Shown: positions 42,553 through 49,179 of the stretch, piece after piece
Position numbering within the stretch: the first letter of the stretch is position 1
Layout of the letters: each line of letters opens with the position of its first letter
Origin: Amnibacterium setariae
GTDB lineage: Bacteria > Actinomycetota > Actinomycetes > Actinomycetales > Microbacteriaceae
NCBI RefSeq assembly: GCF_003581425.1
Contig: NZ_QXTG01000002.1
Coordinates: 248,001 to 312,000, forward strand
Length of the DNA: 64,000 nt
Reading direction: 5' to 3'
Notes under the pieces: generated by a model
The model's database searches: none
What the model was told of the DNA's origin: nothing
The model's input: the letters and a program-made list of their open reading frames with translations, nothing else
Made by a program: the position numbers and the translations under genes

Positions 42553-42590
42553 GCCGGAATCCTGCCGGACGGGCGGTGCAGGCTTGCCCC

Positions 42591-44396
42591 GTGCCGTTCA
42601 CCCCGCCGCCCGAGTTCACCACCCGACCGGACCTGCAGGGCGTGTTCGGGATGACCGCCACGACGCACTGGCTCGCGACCGGCGCCGGCCAGTCGGTGCT
42701 CGAGCGGGGCGGCACCGCGTTCGACGCGGCCGTCGCCGCCGCCTTCGTGCTCCACCTCGTCGAGCCGCACCTGAACGGGCCCGGCGGCGACCTCGTCGCG
42801 CTGCTCGCCACCGCGGAGGACCCGGGCACGCCGGTCGTGCTCATGGGGCAGGGCCCGGCACCGGCCGGCGCGACGCTCGAGCGCTACCGGGCGGAGGGGC
42901 TCGACCTCGTGCCCGGTGCGGGCGCCCTCGCGGCGACCGTGCCCGGCGCGGTCGACGCGTGGCTGCTGCTGCTCGAGACGCACGGCACGTGGGAGCTGCG
43001 GGACGTGCTCGGGATCCCCCTCGCGCTCGCCCGCGACGGCCACCCGCTCTCCGTCGGCCCGGCCCGCGCGATCGCGGCCATGGCGTCGTTCTTCCGCGAC
43101 CACTGGCCGACCTCCGCGGCGCACTGGCTGCACCCCGACGGCACCCCGCCGGTCGCCGGCGAGATCGTGACGAACCGCCCGTGGGCGGGCGTGCTCGAGG
43201 AGCTGGTCGCCGCCGGGGACGCGCTCGGGCCCGCCGCCTCCCGCGCCGACCGGGTCCGCTCGGCGAGGGACGCCTGGGCGACCGGGCGGGTCGCCCGCGA
43301 GATCGACGCCTTCGTGCGCGCCCCGCACCGGCACAGCGACGGCCGGGACCACGCGGGCGTGCTCCGCGCCGAGGACCTCGCCGGCTTCCGAGCCGGCTTC
43401 GAGCCCGCCGCCGTGCTCGACTTCCGCGGCACGACCGTCGCGAAGAGCGGGCCGTGGGGGCAGGGACCCGCGCTGCTGGCGGCGCTCGCGATCCTCGAGC
43501 CGCTCGACGACGCCCTGCTCGACCCGTCGACCGCGGACGGCGCCCACACGATCGCGGAGGCGATGAAGCTCGCGCTCGCGGACCGGGAGGCGTGGTTCGG
43601 CGACGACGGCGACGTGCCGCTCGAGCGCCTCCTCTCCCCCGGGTACGCGGCCGACCGCCGGGCGCTGATCGGGCCCCGCGCCTCCGCGGAGCTCCGGCCC
43701 GGGACCGGCCCCGGTCGACCCGCCCTGGTCCGCCTCCGCACCGCCGCGGAGTACGCGGCCGGGGTCGCGGGCGTCGGCGAGCCCACGATCGAGTCGACCG
43801 GCGACCTCCGCGGGGACACGTGCCACCTCGACGTGGTCGACCGCTGGGGCAACATCGTCGCGGCGACGCCGTCGGGCGGGTGGCTGCAGTCCTCCCCGAC
43901 GATCCCGGGTCTCGGGTTCTGCCTCGGCACCCGGCTGCAGATGACCTGGCTCGAGGAGGGCACCGCCACCACGCTGACGCCGGGCCGTCGGCCGCGGACG
44001 ACGCTCACCCCGACGCTGCTGCTCCGCGACGGGCACGCGGTCGCGGCGCTCGGCACCCCGGGCGGCGACCAGCAGGACCAGTGGCAGCTGCTGTACCTGC
44101 TGCGCACCCTCGTGGGCGGCTGGAGCCCGCAGCAGGCGATCGACGCGCCCGCGTTCCACACCACCTCGTTCCCCGGCTCGTTCTGGCCGCGGACGTGGGA
44201 GCCGGGCGGCCTCGTCGTCGAGGACCGGCTCGGCGAGGGCGTGATCCGGGAGCTGGAGGCACGCGGCCACGTCGTGACGCGGGCCGGCGACCAGGTGCTC
44301 GGCCGGCTGACGACCGTCGGCCGCGACCCGGCGACCGGCGTGCTGCACGCAGCGGCGAACGCCCGCGCGATGCAGGGCTACGCCGCGGGCCGCTGA
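42591..44396 (+). CDS. ggt: Gamma-glutamyltransferase family protein
   Basis: A 601-residue Ntn hydrolase. The autoprocessing nucleophile is Thr410 in GDTCHLDVVDRWGN, matching the T-x-H-x-x-V-V-D block that becomes the N-terminus of the small subunit; GGTAFDAAVAAAFVLHLVEPHLNGPGG opens the large subunit, and TPGGDQQDQWQLLYLL is near the C-terminus. Unlike the classical secreted enzyme it has no signal peptide, so it should act in the cytosol, as in the glutathione/acylase-like subgroup. GTG start at 42591. A head-to-head repeat pair follows the stop. Confidence 0.88.
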   Translation: MPFTPPPEFTTRPDLQGVFGMTATTHWLATGAGQSVLERGGTAFDAAVAAAFVLHLVEPHLNGPGGDLVALLATAEDPGTPVVLMGQGPAPAGATLERYRAEGLDLVPGAGALAATVPGAVDAWLLLLETHGTWELRDVLGIPLALARDGHPLSVGPARAIAAMASFFRDHWPTSAAHWLHPDGTPPVAGEIVTNRPWAGVLEELVAAGDALGPAASRADRVRSARDAWATGRVAREIDAFVRAPHRHSDGRDHAGVLRAEDLAGFRAGFEPAAVLDFRGTTVAKSGPWGQGPALLAALAILEPLDDALLDPSTADGAHTIAEAMKLALADREAWFGDDGDVPLERLLSPGYAADRRALIGPRASAELRPGTGPGRPALVRLRTAAEYAAGVAGVGEPTIESTGDLRGDTCHLDVVDRWGNIVAATPSGGWLQSSPTIPGLGFCLGTRLQMTWLEEGTATTLTPGRRPRTTLTPTLLLRDGHAVAALGTPGGDQQDQWQLLYLLRTLVGGWSPQQAIDAPAFHTTSFPGSFWPRTWEPGGLVVEDRLGEGVIRELEARGHVVTRAGDQVLGRLTTVGRDPATGVLHAAANARAMQGYAAGR

Positions 44397-44518: not shown

Positions 44519-45355
44519 TCAGCCGCTGATGTCCTTGCGGGTGAAGCGCCAGGCCGCGAGGGCGCCGAGCACGATCGCCCAGAGCAGGCCTGACAGCAGC
44601 GCGTCCGCCGGCGGCGCGAGGTCGACCGGGACCTCGAGGAAGGACCGGAACGCGGTCGACCAGTGCGTCGGCAGCACCACGCGGAGGTCGCCGAGCGCCG
44701 GGATCTGGTCGAGGATGCGCGACAGGATCGACGCGAGCACCACGCCGCCGGCCGCCGCGAGGGGCGAGTCCGACACGACGGTGAGCAGGGTGCCGAGCGC
44801 CGCCGCCCACAGCAGCCCGACGATCGCGGCGCCCGTCGCCGCGAGCAGCCGCAGCACCGAGTCGCCGAAGCCGAGCCGCGGCCCGCCGGGCACCTGGATG
44901 CCGCCGGCCCCGTAGGAGAGCACGCCGACCAGCAGCGCGACGAGCGTGAGCGCGAGCAGCCCGGCCACGAGCAGAACCGTCGCCACCTGCACCTTCACGG
45001 CGAGCAGGCGGAGGCGCGGCACGGGCACGGTGAGCAGGTACTTCAGGGTCGACCGGGACGCCTCCCCCGCGATCAGGTCCCCGAACAGCAGCGCCGCGAC
45101 GAGCGTCGCCAGGAACCCGCCGGTCAGCACGAGCACGAAGGCCGCGAAGGTGCCGCCGCTGACCTGCGCGAGGGCGGTGAGGTCGGTCGTGCCGGAGCGG
45201 GACGACGCGGGCGGGCCGCCGACGAGCAGGGCGATCCGCACGACGACGGGCAGCACGGCGAGCACGATCAGCGCGATCCGCACGCGCCACTGGCTCAGCT
45301 GGCGCGCGAGCTCGACGCGGAACGGGAGGCGCGTCGGGCGCCGCAGGGCGCTCAT
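44519..45355 (-). CDS. ABC transporter permease
   Basis: A 278-residue membrane protein with six hydrophobic segments in the ABC-2 layout (first near 26-45, then a large periplasmic loop, and four in a dense bundle at 135-270). SRSTLKYLLTVPVPRLRLLAVK is the usual coupling region. It overlaps the upstream ATPase fusion gene by ATGA and forms its membrane half. The transported substrate is unknown. The C-terminus RFTRKDISG is cytosolic. Confidence 0.88.
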   Translation of the reverse strand: MSALRRPTRLPFRVELARQLSQWRVRIALIVLAVLPVVVRIALLVGGPPASSRSGTTDLTALAQVSGGTFAAFVLVLTGGFLATLVAALLFGDLIAGEASRSTLKYLLTVPVPRLRLLAVKVQVATVLLVAGLLALTLVALLVGVLSYGAGGIQVPGGPRLGFGDSVLRLLAATGAAIVGLLWAAALGTLLTVVSDSPLAAAGGVVLASILSRILDQIPALGDLRVVLPTHWSTAFRSFLEVPVDLAPPADALLSGLLWAIVLGALAAWRFTRKDISG

Positions 45356-48042
45356 GCGGACGGCTCCGTCGCGCCGATGAGGTCGAGGAAGGCCTCCTCG
45401 AGGTGCCGGCCGCGCGTCACGCCGGTCACCCCGACGCCGGCCGCGACCACCGCCGCGACGACGTCCTGGACGGGCACGGCGCCGGGTCGCACCCGGACCG
45501 CGTCCGTGCCGGACGGGTCCGCCGCCTCCACCCCGGCGACGCGCACGGCCGCGACCGCGGCGGGCACGTCGGTCACCGTGAGCACGAGCTCCGTCGCCTC
45601 GCCCGCGATCGCCTCCACCGGCCCGGCCGCGACGACCCGGCCGTGCGACATCACGACGACGTGGCTGCAGGTGCGCTCGACCTCGCCGAGGAGGTGGGAG
45701 GAGACGACCACGGTCCGCCCGGCCGCCGCGTAGCGCTGCAGCACGCCGCGGAGCGCGGTGATCTGCGGCGGGTCGAGGCCGTTCGTCGGCTCGTCGAGGA
45801 TCAGCAGGTCGGGCAGGCCGAGCATCGCCTGCGCGATCGCCAGCCGCTGCCGCATGCCCTGGCTGTACCCGCGGACGGGCTTCCGGATGGCGCCCCCGAG
45901 GTCCGCGACCGCCAGGGCCTCGTCGAAGCGGGCGTCGCGCCGCGGCCTGCCGGTCGCGGCCCAGTAGAGCTCGAGGTTGCGCCGCCCGGAGAGGTGCGGC
46001 AGGAAGCCGGGCCCCTCGATGAAGCACCCGATGCGCTCGAGCGCGGGCGATCCGGGCCCGAGCGGCGCGCCGAACGCCCGCACGGTGCCGGCGTCCGGCC
46101 GGAGCAGCCCGGCCACCATCCGCAGGGTGGTCGTCTTGCCGGCGCCGTTCTCGCCCAGCAGGCCGACCACCTGCCCGCGCTGCGCGGTGAACCCGACGTC
46201 GTCGACGGCGAGGAAGCCGCCGCGGAAGCGCTTCACGAGGCCGGCGATCTCGAGCGGCGGGCCCTCCGCCTCCGCCTCCGGCGGCACCGGCGGCACCGGC
46301 GGCGCCGGGCGCTGCCGACGGCGCCCGAGCACGGCCCCGAGCACGAGCAGGACCACGGCGACGAGGAGCGCGGCGGCGATGCCGAGCAGCACGCCGGGCG
46401 TCGGCAGACCGGCGCTGCGGACGCGCGTCGCGACCGCGACGGTCGGCAGGGCGATCGGCGACGCGACGGCGATGCGGTCGCTCGCCGGCGCGGTGCTGCC
46501 GAGGAGCTGGCTGTCGCTCGTGCGCACGGTGAGCACGAGCCGGTCGCCCGGCGCGAGGCTCCAGGAGGTGGCGGGCAGGGTGACGTCGACGTCGCCGCCG
46601 CCCTCGGGCAGCGCGACCCGGATCGGGGCGACGCCGCCGGGCAGCGGGAGCTCCTCGTCCCCGGTCCTCGCGGAGAGCTGCGCGTAGAGCACCGCGGTCC
46701 CGGCGGCCGACGGCGTCACGCGGAGCCGCACCCGCGCCGACCCGGTCAGCACGGCGGGCGCCGTCAGCGGGGCGGACGCGAAGGCCGCCGCCTCGGACGG
46801 CGGGTTCGCGGCCGCGAGCAGCGAGCCCGCGGTGCGCCCGACCGAGGTCGAGGCGCTGAGGCCGGGGATGCCGGTGACGGACTGCGGCTGGCCGCCCGGC
46901 GGGTTCACGACGGTCCGGACGCCGCCCTCGAGCGGGATCCGGGTCGTGCCCGTCCCCGCGAGACCCGGGTAGGCGGGCGCCACCCGCTTCTCGCGGAACG
47001 CCGTCGCGCTGGCGGGGACGGCCCAGGAGAACAGCGTCGAGACCGGTGCGCGGGTCCGGAGGCGGTCGCGCAGCCAGTCGTCGATCACGCCGTCGGTCCC
47101 GGCGATGCCGCCGCCGTCGTGCCCGCCGTCGAACCACCGCACCTGCACGGGCGCACCGGCGGCGCGGAGCTGCCGCGCGTTCGCGTCGGCCTGGTCGAGC
47201 CCGAACAGGCGGTCCTGCTCCCCCTGCAGCAGGAGGGTCGGCGCGCGCATGCCCGCGAGCACCGCCTCCGGGGACGACCGCTCGAGCAGCGCGAGGTCGG
47301 CGGGCGTCGCGGTGCCGCCCGTCACGAGCCGCCGGTACAGGTCGCAGAACGCGGGCGTGAAGCGGCCGCAGGCGTCGGTCGAGCCGGCGATCCCGGCGCC
47401 GAAGAGCCGGGACGCCCAGCCGACCTTGAAGTCCCGGAGGGGCTCCCCGGCCCCGCCGGGTACCCGCCCGACCGAAGGCGGCGCGAGCGCGTCGGCGAGG
47501 TCGTTCCAGGTGATCGCGGCGACGACCGTGTCGATGCGCGGGTCGGTCGCGCCGAGCATGAGCGCGAGGGCGCCGCCGTAGGAGCCGCCGACGACGCCGA
47601 CGACCGGGTCGCCGCCCCGCCGCTCTACCGCCGGGTCGCGGGCGAGGACGTCGACCATGGCCCGGGCGTCGGGCACCTCCCCGTCGAGCGAGTCGAGCCC
47701 GATGCGCCCGCCCGACCGACCGAAGCCGCGGGCGGTGTAGGCGAGCACCACGTAGCCCTCGCGCCGCAGCCGCTCCGCCGCGGGCGCGAGGTCGGCCTTC
47801 GTCTGCCCGAAGCCGTGCGCGAGCAGGACCGCGGGCGCGGGGGTCGCCGCGGGCGTGTACAGCGTGGCGTCGAGGCGGATCCTGCTGCTCGAGCCCGGCG
47901 CCTCCGCGACCGGTACGGAGAACGCGCGCGTCGTCGGCGCCCCGGACGGCTCGGTCGTCGCCGCACCGGCCGCGACGGCCGGGCCCAGGGCGAGCGCGGC
48001 GGTGAGCAGGACGGCGACGAGCCCCCTCCGTCCCCGCCGCAT
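45352..48042 (-). CDS. Secreted alpha/beta-hydrolase fused through a TM helix to an ABC ATPase
   Basis: An 896-residue chimera. Signal peptide (1-27), a CocE/X-Pro dipeptidyl-peptidase-like hydrolase (50-330; GGSYGG with Ser154, GEQDRLFG with Asp277, GGHDGG with His308), a jelly-roll domain (about 430-530), one transmembrane helix (549-573), a Pro-rich linker, then an ABC ATPase (595-896): Walker A GENGAGKTT, signature YSQGMRQR, Walker B LLILDEPTNGLDP, H-loop SSHLL. The hydrolase must face outward and the ATPase the cytosol. The permease gene is coupled by ATGA. It may cleave and export or import a peptide or ester. Start ATG at 48042. Confidence 0.9.
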   Translation of the reverse strand: MRRGRRGLVAVLLTAALALGPAVAAGAATTEPSGAPTTRAFSVPVAEAPGSSSRIRLDATLYTPAATPAPAVLLAHGFGQTKADLAPAAERLRREGYVVLAYTARGFGRSGGRIGLDSLDGEVPDARAMVDVLARDPAVERRGGDPVVGVVGGSYGGALALMLGATDPRIDTVVAAITWNDLADALAPPSVGRVPGGAGEPLRDFKVGWASRLFGAGIAGSTDACGRFTPAFCDLYRRLVTGGTATPADLALLERSSPEAVLAGMRAPTLLLQGEQDRLFGLDQADANARQLRAAGAPVQVRWFDGGHDGGGIAGTDGVIDDWLRDRLRTRAPVSTLFSWAVPASATAFREKRVAPAYPGLAGTGTTRIPLEGGVRTVVNPPGGQPQSVTGIPGLSASTSVGRTAGSLLAAANPPSEAAAFASAPLTAPAVLTGSARVRLRVTPSAAGTAVLYAQLSARTGDEELPLPGGVAPIRVALPEGGGDVDVTLPATSWSLAPGDRLVLTVRTSDSQLLGSTAPASDRIAVASPIALPTVAVATRVRSAGLPTPGVLLGIAAALLVAVVLLVLGAVLGRRRQRPAPPVPPVPPEAEAEGPPLEIAGLVKRFRGGFLAVDDVGFTAQRGQVVGLLGENGAGKTTTLRMVAGLLRPDAGTVRAFGAPLGPGSPALERIGCFIEGPGFLPHLSGRRNLELYWAATGRPRRDARFDEALAVADLGGAIRKPVRGYSQGMRQRLAIAQAMLGLPDLLILDEPTNGLDPPQITALRGVLQRYAAAGRTVVVSSHLLGEVERTCSHVVVMSHGRVVAAGPVEAIAGEATELVLTVTDVPAAVAAVRVAGVEAADPSGTDAVRVRPGAVPVQDVVAAVVAAGVGVTGVTRGRHLEEAFLDLIGATEPSA

Positions 48043-48138: not shown

Positions 48139-49179
48139 GTGCACGAGGCAGCAGCGGATCGGTACGACGGCGGGATGCGGTACCGCCGGAGCGGACGGTC
48201 GGGGCTCGACCTCCCGGTCCTGTCGCTCGGCTTCTGGCAGAACTTCGGCGACGACCGGCCCTACGCCGTGCAGCGCGAGATCGCCCTCCGCGCGTTCGAC
48301 CTCGGGATCACGCACTTCGACCTGGCCAACAACTACGGCCCGCCCTACGGCGCCGCGGAGCGCACCGTCGGCCGGCTGCTCGGCTCCGACCTGCGGCGGT
48401 ACCGCGACGAGCTCGTCGTCTCGAGCAAGGCGGGGTGGGACATGTGGCCCGGCCCGTACGGGCAGGGCGGCGGCGGCCGGAAGTACGTGCTCGCCTCGCT
48501 CGACCAGTCCCTCGAGCGCCTCGGGCTCGAGTACGTCGACCTCTTCTACTCGCACCGCTACGACCCGACGACGCCGCTCGAGGAGACCGCGGAGGCGCTC
48601 GCCACCGCGGTCCGGCAGGGCAAGGCGCTGTACGTCGGAATCTCGTCGTACACCGCGGACGACTCGCGGACCATGGCCCGGCTGCTGCGGGAGCGCGGCG
48701 TCCCGCTGCTCATCCACCAGCCCTCCTACTCGATGCTGAACCGCTGGATCGAGACGGACGGCCTGCTCGACGCGGCCGCCGAGGAGGGCTTCGGCGTCAT
48801 CGGGTTCACCGCGCTCGCGCAGGGCCTGCTCACGTCGAAGTACCTGGACGGCGTGCCGGAGGGCTCCCGCGCCGCGCAGGGCGGGTCGTTCGACCGGGCC
48901 TGGCTCACCGAGGGGCTGATCGAGCGGCTGCGCGGCCTGAACCGCATCGCCGAGGACCGCGGGCAGACGCTCGCGCAGCTCGCGCTGGCGTGGGCGCTCC
49001 GCGACGAGCGGGTCACCAGCCTCGTCATCGGCGCGTCGTCGGTCGAGCAGCTCGAGCAGAACGTCGGCGCGCTGCAGGCGCCGCCGCTCACCGCGGACGA
49101 GCTCGCCCGCATCGACGGGCTCGTCGAGGGCGACGCCGGCGTCGACCTCTGGCGGACCGCGCGGATGGGCGAGCTCTGA
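48139..49179 (+). CDS. Aldo/keto reductase (YghZ/MgrA-like)
   Basis: A 346-residue TIM-barrel NADPH oxidoreductase of the AKR14/potassium-channel beta-like branch. The catalytic set is present: Asp and Tyr in THFDLANNYGPPYG, Lys in VVSSKAG and His in LFYSHRYDP. The C-terminal TSLVIGASSVEQLEQNV binds the cofactor phosphate. E. coli YghZ reduces L-glyceraldehyde-3-phosphate and methylglyoxal. GTG start with AGGAGG 6 nt upstream. Confidence 0.92.
   Translation: MHEAAADRYDGGMRYRRSGRSGLDLPVLSLGFWQNFGDDRPYAVQREIALRAFDLGITHFDLANNYGPPYGAAERTVGRLLGSDLRRYRDELVVSSKAGWDMWPGPYGQGGGGRKYVLASLDQSLERLGLEYVDLFYSHRYDPTTPLEETAEALATAVRQGKALYVGISSYTADDSRTMARLLRERGVPLLIHQPSYSMLNRWIETDGLLDAAAEEGFGVIGFTALAQGLLTSKYLDGVPEGSRAAQGGSFDRAWLTEGLIERLRGLNRIAEDRGQTLAQLALAWALRDERVTSLVIGASSVEQLEQNVGALQAPPLTADELARIDGLVEGDAGVDLWRTARMGEL

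Follow-up and report, generated by a model that had tools for sequence, protein, structure and literature searches.

ZmaM is an extracytoplasmic serine peptidase fused to an ATP-binding cassette (ABC) half-transporter, and the account that covers it describes the homologs EdeA and PamJ as similar (PMC9889268). A review describes LanFEG-type ABC-2 pumps as expelling lantibiotics from the membrane, and some lantibiotic-resistance operons as adding a membrane-associated lipoprotein or a serine protease, nsr standing with a BceAB-type pump (PMC5786555). Here we analyse a gene of Amnibacterium setariae (Microbacteriaceae) that encodes a putative secreted serine hydrolase, a membrane helix and an ABC ATPase in one chain. 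It lies in a stretch of 64,000 nucleotides, hereafter the window (contig NZ_QXTG01000002.1, positions 248,001 to 312,000), and is followed by the gene of an ABC-2 permease. An earlier note on this DNA had stated that known ABC systems keep the enzyme and the ATPase separate, which is contradicted by ZmaM, EdeA and PamJ as they are described in the account cited (PMC9889268).

The fusion gene occupies positions 45352 to 48042 of the minus strand and reads from an ATG at 48042 to a TGA at 45354-45352 as a frame of 896 residues; the earlier note had given the same coordinates and length, leaving the strand unstated. Four Pfam families scored above their gathering scores along the chain: Hydrolase_4 (residues 68-175), Peptidase_S15 (55-294), PepX_C (415-514) and ABC_tran (614-754). 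The chain begins with a hydrophobic, predicted N-terminal signal sequence (residues 1-29, positions 47956-48042). An alpha/beta-hydrolase domain recognised by Pfam, conservation and fold follows (residues ~50-330, 47053-47895), with Ser154, Asp277, His308 and an HGFG motif at 76-79. Then come a jelly-roll of the PepX_C kind, seen in Pfam, in the strands of the structure model and in fold matches that extend to residue 535 (residues ~400-535, 46438-46845), a single transmembrane helix with an Arg-rich flank behind it (residues 549-572, 46327-46398), a Pro/Ala-rich inner linker (residues 573-596, 46255-46326), and a complete ABC ATPase supported by Pfam, motifs, conservation and fold (residues 597-896, 45355-46254). 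The ATGA overlap between the stop codon of the fusion and the start codon of the permease, also reported earlier, can be read directly in the DNA; the permease gene (44519-45355, minus strand) encodes 278 residues that matched ABC2_membrane_2/4 of Pfam and have a NosY-like fold.

Since the plus-strand frame over the same region is also open (1258 codons), the openness of the frame proves nothing, and conservation and homologs of lower GC content were used instead. The whole chain was present in three of six genomes of the same genus at 62-78% identity, the other three giving ATPase-level matches only. Of 80 named loci, 79 had hydrolase, jelly-roll and ATPase in a single frame, a count that is not a population rate because these were the 80 best among at least 580 confirmed relatives; the remaining locus (L061) ends with its contig, and in L075 a contig end cuts the ATPase. 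Fusion loci with a GC content of only 45-52% also exist (L143, 49%; L145, 45%; and L153). A frameshift or assembly error between the helix and the ATPase, the objection raised in the earlier note, is excluded by the same-genus, named and lower-GC homologs, and a chance open frame of GC-rich DNA is ruled out by conservation and the lower-GC loci. The earlier description of a signal sequence, a triad, a jelly-roll, one helix and a complete ATPase in one frame was thus borne out by Pfam, conservation and the named loci.

Residue conservation was read from 100 aligned rows, made up of 20 rows of an alignment (A1) and the 80 named loci. The triad did not vary among the 20 aligned fusions of A1, and over all rows Ser154 and Asp277 were kept in 100 and His308 in 99. 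The order of Peptidase_S15 and PepX_C jelly-roll, together with a Ser-Asp-His triad with a GxSYxG motif, indicates that the enzyme is a predicted S15/CocE-type serine hydrolase of the ester- or peptide-cutting type. In structural alignments of the model the fold matched PaL lipase of Pseudomonas with Z 32.3 over 445 residues (model residues 34-535, root-mean-square deviation 3.0, 23% identity), and the cocaine esterase CocE with Z 27.2 over 447 residues (3.0, 20%). The ATPase has a Walker A motif, a YSQGMRQR signature, a Walker B motif with Asp750-Glu751, an H-loop with His783, and Glu676 in the presumed place of the Q-loop. The Walker A Lys was kept in 99 rows, the Walker B Asp/Glu and the H-loop His in 98 each, the remainder being gaps (contig ends truncate two of the rows, L061 and L075), and 98 of the 100 rows had Glu where the Q-loop is presumed to lie. 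Both activities therefore appear, as far as conservation can tell, to be under selection. In one row (L030) some 100 extra residues, rich in Thr and Ala, are inserted after the ATPase core.

The ATPase fold matched TM0544 (Z 29.7 over 235 residues) and NosF (Z 28.9 over 294). Its best NCBIfam matches were exporters, DrrA and then the lantibiotic-protection ATPase; neither reached its curated cut-off. An ABC-2 permease beside an ATPase with complete motifs is the composition of an ABC-2 (type V) transporter. In the permease model, with a mean predicted local distance difference test (pLDDT) score of 89.0, NosY was the best Foldseek match (E 8.5e-05 to 2.2e-03), the PmtCD exporter was weaker (E 2.5e-03), and ABCG exporters were also among the matches. 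A permease relative lay directly downstream in 77 of the 80 named loci, the contigs of the other three (L061, L075 and L099) ending nearby, and in 54 of 76 loci the four-base overlap contained an in-frame start codon of the permease. A plain ATPase-permease pair, with no hydrolase extension, occurs elsewhere in the genome of the window (L002, G000:C2:108768-109676); its ATPase shares about 46% identity with the fused one, and its permease about 32% with the partner of the fusion.

The hydrolase and the ATPase are predicted to face opposite sides of the membrane, the former outside and the latter inside, as proposed earlier. The N-terminus was hydrophobic (15-residue mean of at least 1.6) in 95 of the aligned rows, a hydrophobic segment (19-residue hydropathy of at least 1.6) was found at the helix in all 100, and the ATPase-side flank of the helix was net positive in 73. 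The structure model of the fusion (mean pLDDT 79.9, predicted template modelling score 0.60) contained one membrane-type helix, at residues 549-572. Cys225 and Cys233 (47344-47370) occurred together in 98 rows, were both missing in two and were never found singly, and no other Cys was present in residues 45-545. This paired pattern suggests that they form an extracellular disulfide, which would place the domain outside the cytoplasm. The two rows lacking the pair (L026 and L028) grouped together in the ATPase tree with a support of 89. Among seven unfused hydrolase relatives both cysteines were found in two and neither in five, and most also had the conserved Lys206 and Trp209; because these residues occur in unfused relatives, none of them marks the fusion and they were rejected as fusion-specific features.

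The segments that join the domains were variable. The outer linker measured 16-33 residues and the inner one 18-179, both poorly conserved, and the helix had a mean top-residue share of 0.39 versus 0.80 for the ATPase. The pLDDT of the inner linker fell below 50 at residues 572-587 and 589-591. Variable length, poor conservation and low model confidence of the inner part would fit a tether rather than a lever.

The named loci spanned 28 named genera plus five loci with no genus, all Actinomycetota, including Streptomyces, Kitasatospora, Amycolatopsis, Lentzea, Actinomadura, Nonomuraea, Rhodococcus and Subtercola. The nearest of these 80 relatives, out of at least 580, were from Subtercola (Microbacteriaceae), 61 and 66% identical. 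A hydrolase query matched 50 of 396 genomes in a search of the phylum; of 30 loci from this search, 22 had ATPase sequence in the hydrolase frame, some only as far as the Walker A motif, beyond which the locus does not extend, and the other eight, one of them cut, had no in-frame ATPase. With a Streptomyces hydrolase (L118) as query, relatives at 1e-40, counting fused and unfused ones alike, turned up in 91 of 296 genomes of a class sample. In the family of the window, nine of 249 genomes, its own included, had a close hydrolase relative; confirmation of the ATPase covers six of the nine. Three genomes of 1.3-1.4 Mb keep both the fusion and the permease (L143-L145). Together with L153 these form a set of small genomes (1.3-2.4 Mb) in which the neighbours of the module differ, among them copper monooxygenase-like, DUF305, DapB-like and glycerol-3-phosphate oxidase-like genes. 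The only plasmid-collection match of the fusion, a named relative, had no gene annotated there. A Nonomuraea record of 11.85 Mb in that collection (NZ_LT559118.1, L155) is filed as a plasmid and is probably the chromosome.

Among actinobacteria the fusion is both widespread and old. An ATPase tree of 62 rows was built from 47 fused sequences (the window, 19 from A1 and every third of the 80 named loci) and 15 unfused ones, one of which (L021) was flagged by the tree program as a very long branch. All fused ATPases fell on one side of a branch from the unfused ones, with a Shimodaira-Hasegawa-like approximate likelihood ratio test (SH-aLRT) value of 84, not starred, which is consistent with a single fusion event. 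The 15 unfused ATPases, 14 of which had a permease relative, showed no hydrophobic segment within the 80 residues that precede the domain (highest mean 0.89). Unfused relatives of the hydrolase are about 560-720 residues long and stop after the jelly-roll; six of seven such loci (L146-L151) had neither an in-frame ATPase nor a nearby ATPase or permease relative, the seventh (L152) being cut by its contig, and seven further unfused open reading frames had no strong helix at their end (highest 1.4, in L044). A split version of the fusion was not found in the loci looked at. One unfused S15 relative (L044:1420-3216) ends in LPATGG, a hydrophobic tail and Arg, and looks like a sortase-anchored surface hydrolase.

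In the window, the fusion is flanked by a divergent aldo/keto reductase gene (about 48175-49179) and the gene pair by a convergent gamma-glutamyltransferase gene (42576-44396). Apart from the permease and antisense frames, no neighbour family was common to more than 32 of the 80 named loci. A TerC-family gene was divergent to the fusion in 32 and uvrB was downstream in 23, and these flanks mark a stable chromosomal place in several families. Neighbours varied by lineage and the shared families that were scanned look positional. Among ten neighbour-family representatives scanned in the named loci there was no substrate-binding protein, no nonribosomal peptide synthetase and no two-component system, the last not having been searched for one by one. 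With the permease as the sole constant partner seen and the neighbours lineage-specific, the two genes look like a self-contained machine.

We give about an even chance to the reading that the two genes form a self-contained export-and-cleave machine, an outward NosFY-like ABC-2 exporter that carries a tethered ectohydrolase. The permease and the fused ATPase would form an outward ABC-2 transporter (type V, NosFY/LanFEG-like), presumably with two chains of each. The ATPase chain would begin outside as the secreted hydrolase and cross the membrane once, and the short variable linkers would tether the enzyme to the motor, keeping one near the exit of every pump. There it would most likely cut an ester or amide in an exported or membrane-extracted compound as this leaves, and the outcome could be either maturation and release of a secreted product, as for ZmaM, or destruction of a membrane-active molecule, as for the nsr protease. 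Several points weigh against this reading. The presumed export direction is a reading of family resemblance alone, the Foldseek E-values for the permease are modest (8.5e-05 at best), and the NosY match would also fit a mechanism without any transport. No shared function was seen among the neighbours, which were TerC and uvrB and, elsewhere, PhoD, GNAT, DUF305 and glycerol-3-phosphate oxidase-like genes. The charge bias around the helix is moderate, being greater after than before it in 68 of 100 rows, nine rows have a second stretch with a hydropathy of at least 1.6 within residues 50-540, and Asn replaces His308 in one. Finally, the system is rare in the family of the window, and this rarity does not fit a universal housekeeping role there. 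A broader claim, that this is an undescribed actinobacteria-wide class of ABC exporter in which a motor-borne extracellular hydrolase is obligatorily coupled to the transport of one conserved molecule, from streamlined 1.3-Mb genomes to Streptomyces, is put forward only tentatively and we consider it doubtful.

The destructive outcome could also be the sole function, the pump being a defence against membrane-active peptides, lipopeptides or depsipeptides in which LanFEG/BcrAB-like efflux and a tethered hydrolase share one chain. This is rather unlikely in our judgement, and its probability overlaps with that of the export-and-cleave reading, of which it is the detoxification branch. In its favour, the lantibiotic-protection ATPase was the second best NCBIfam match, but the model concerned (TIGR03740) scored 157.8 bits, far below its cut-off of 309.75. 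The Glu at the presumed Q-loop place resembles the E-loop of LanF, on which a literature search found nothing; plain ATPase paralogs have it too, which makes it no peculiarity of the fusion. Lantibiotic expulsion by LanFEG and the serine protease of some resistance operons offer a precedent, although the protease described in the review accompanies a BceAB-type pump and not one of the ABC-2 type (PMC5786555). Also against it, the neighbour families scanned included no two-component system, and presence in the 1.3-1.4-Mb genomes suits a housekeeping role as well. Anti-phage defence was discarded as a candidate, the PADLOC matches being confined to the generic ATPase part. If the fusion instead served anchoring or stoichiometry only, displaying one hydrolase per pump subunit, the two activities would act on different molecules under the same condition. 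The variable linkers on either side of a poorly conserved helix agree with this, as do the hydrolase relatives that occur as plain secreted enzymes in six of seven loci. Of the 80 closest named loci, 79 nevertheless have all parts in one chain and the 80th is cut by its contig end; a branch separates the fused ATPases from the unfused ones (SH-aLRT 84), and the loci looked at held no split version. So persistent an exotic join would be odd if the activities were independent, and we regard mere anchoring as unlikely.

A mechanical role is less probable still. ATP cycles would, through the permease and the helix, move, load or switch the outside hydrolase while little or nothing is transported. 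NosDFY and FtsEX are models for such control of an extracytoplasmic partner, on which the NosDFY machine acts, and NosY is the closest solved permease fold with NosF among the closest for the ATPase. An inner linker of variable length and low model confidence would nevertheless make a poor lever, and the PmtCD and ABCG exporters are also among the permease matches. That the product of the hydrolase is imported or sensed, the alternative of the earlier note, seems very improbable: a transporter could be fed by a hydrolase placed beside it and the topology permits this, whereas the permease belongs to the ABC-2 kind, among which importers are rare, and resembles NosY and exporters in fold, and no substrate-binding protein was found among the neighbour families scanned.

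The module is widespread, consists of two genes, has two conserved active sites on what are probably opposite sides of the membrane, and is apparently uncharacterised. No published account of this fusion was found among the best matches of word searches of the open-access literature, an absence that is weak evidence. Its occurrence in Streptomyces allows easy deletion and profiling, which makes the link between exporter and ectoenzyme directly testable. If the export-and-cleave reading is true, the logic of export followed by cleavage may extend from antibiotic prodrugs to a more general envelope process of actinobacteria; alternatively, the module would reveal a fused resistance device.

The protein can be set beside several known systems. 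Peptidase-containing ABC transporters (PCAT, C39) have a protease, a membrane part and an ATPase in one chain; their protease acts inside the cell before export, unlike the present enzyme, which is predicted outside. NosDFY has the closest solved permease fold, one of the closest ATPase folds and an extracytoplasmic partner protein, NosD, which is a separate beta-helix protein; it differs in having neither a hydrolase nor a fusion. PaL lipase and CocE share the two-domain catalytic unit, while their matched chains have neither a membrane helix nor an ATPase. The NSR protease is not known to be an S15 enzyme. The nsr nisin-resistance operon nevertheless resembles the module in combining a pump with a membrane-tethered serine hydrolase, and LanFEG and CprABC resemble it in being ABC-2 pumps with a related ATPase; in the LanFEG and nsr systems, as the review describes them, hydrolase and ATPase are separate genes and the operons contain two-component systems (PMC5786555). 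Like ZmaM, EdeA and PamJ, as the account of these proteins describes them, the protein combines an extracytoplasmic serine hydrolase and components of an ABC exporter in a single chain, and it would share with them the logic of export then cleavage (PMC9889268). A hydrolase working at the transporter mouth, as the earlier note had imagined, is hence one live reading and not a wholly new working principle, since ZmaM, EdeA and PamJ already join such parts. Here, unlike there, the hydrolase is of the S15/CocE alpha/beta-hydrolase type, and the ZmaM-type PF00144 beta-lactamase-like peptidase is absent from the seven Pfam matches. A separate ABC-2 permease supplies the transmembrane part, and no biosynthetic cluster could be made out around the fusion in the neighbour families scanned. 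The protein thus resembles both the export-and-cleave and the LanFEG/nsr systems and may work as they do, and it belongs to neither.

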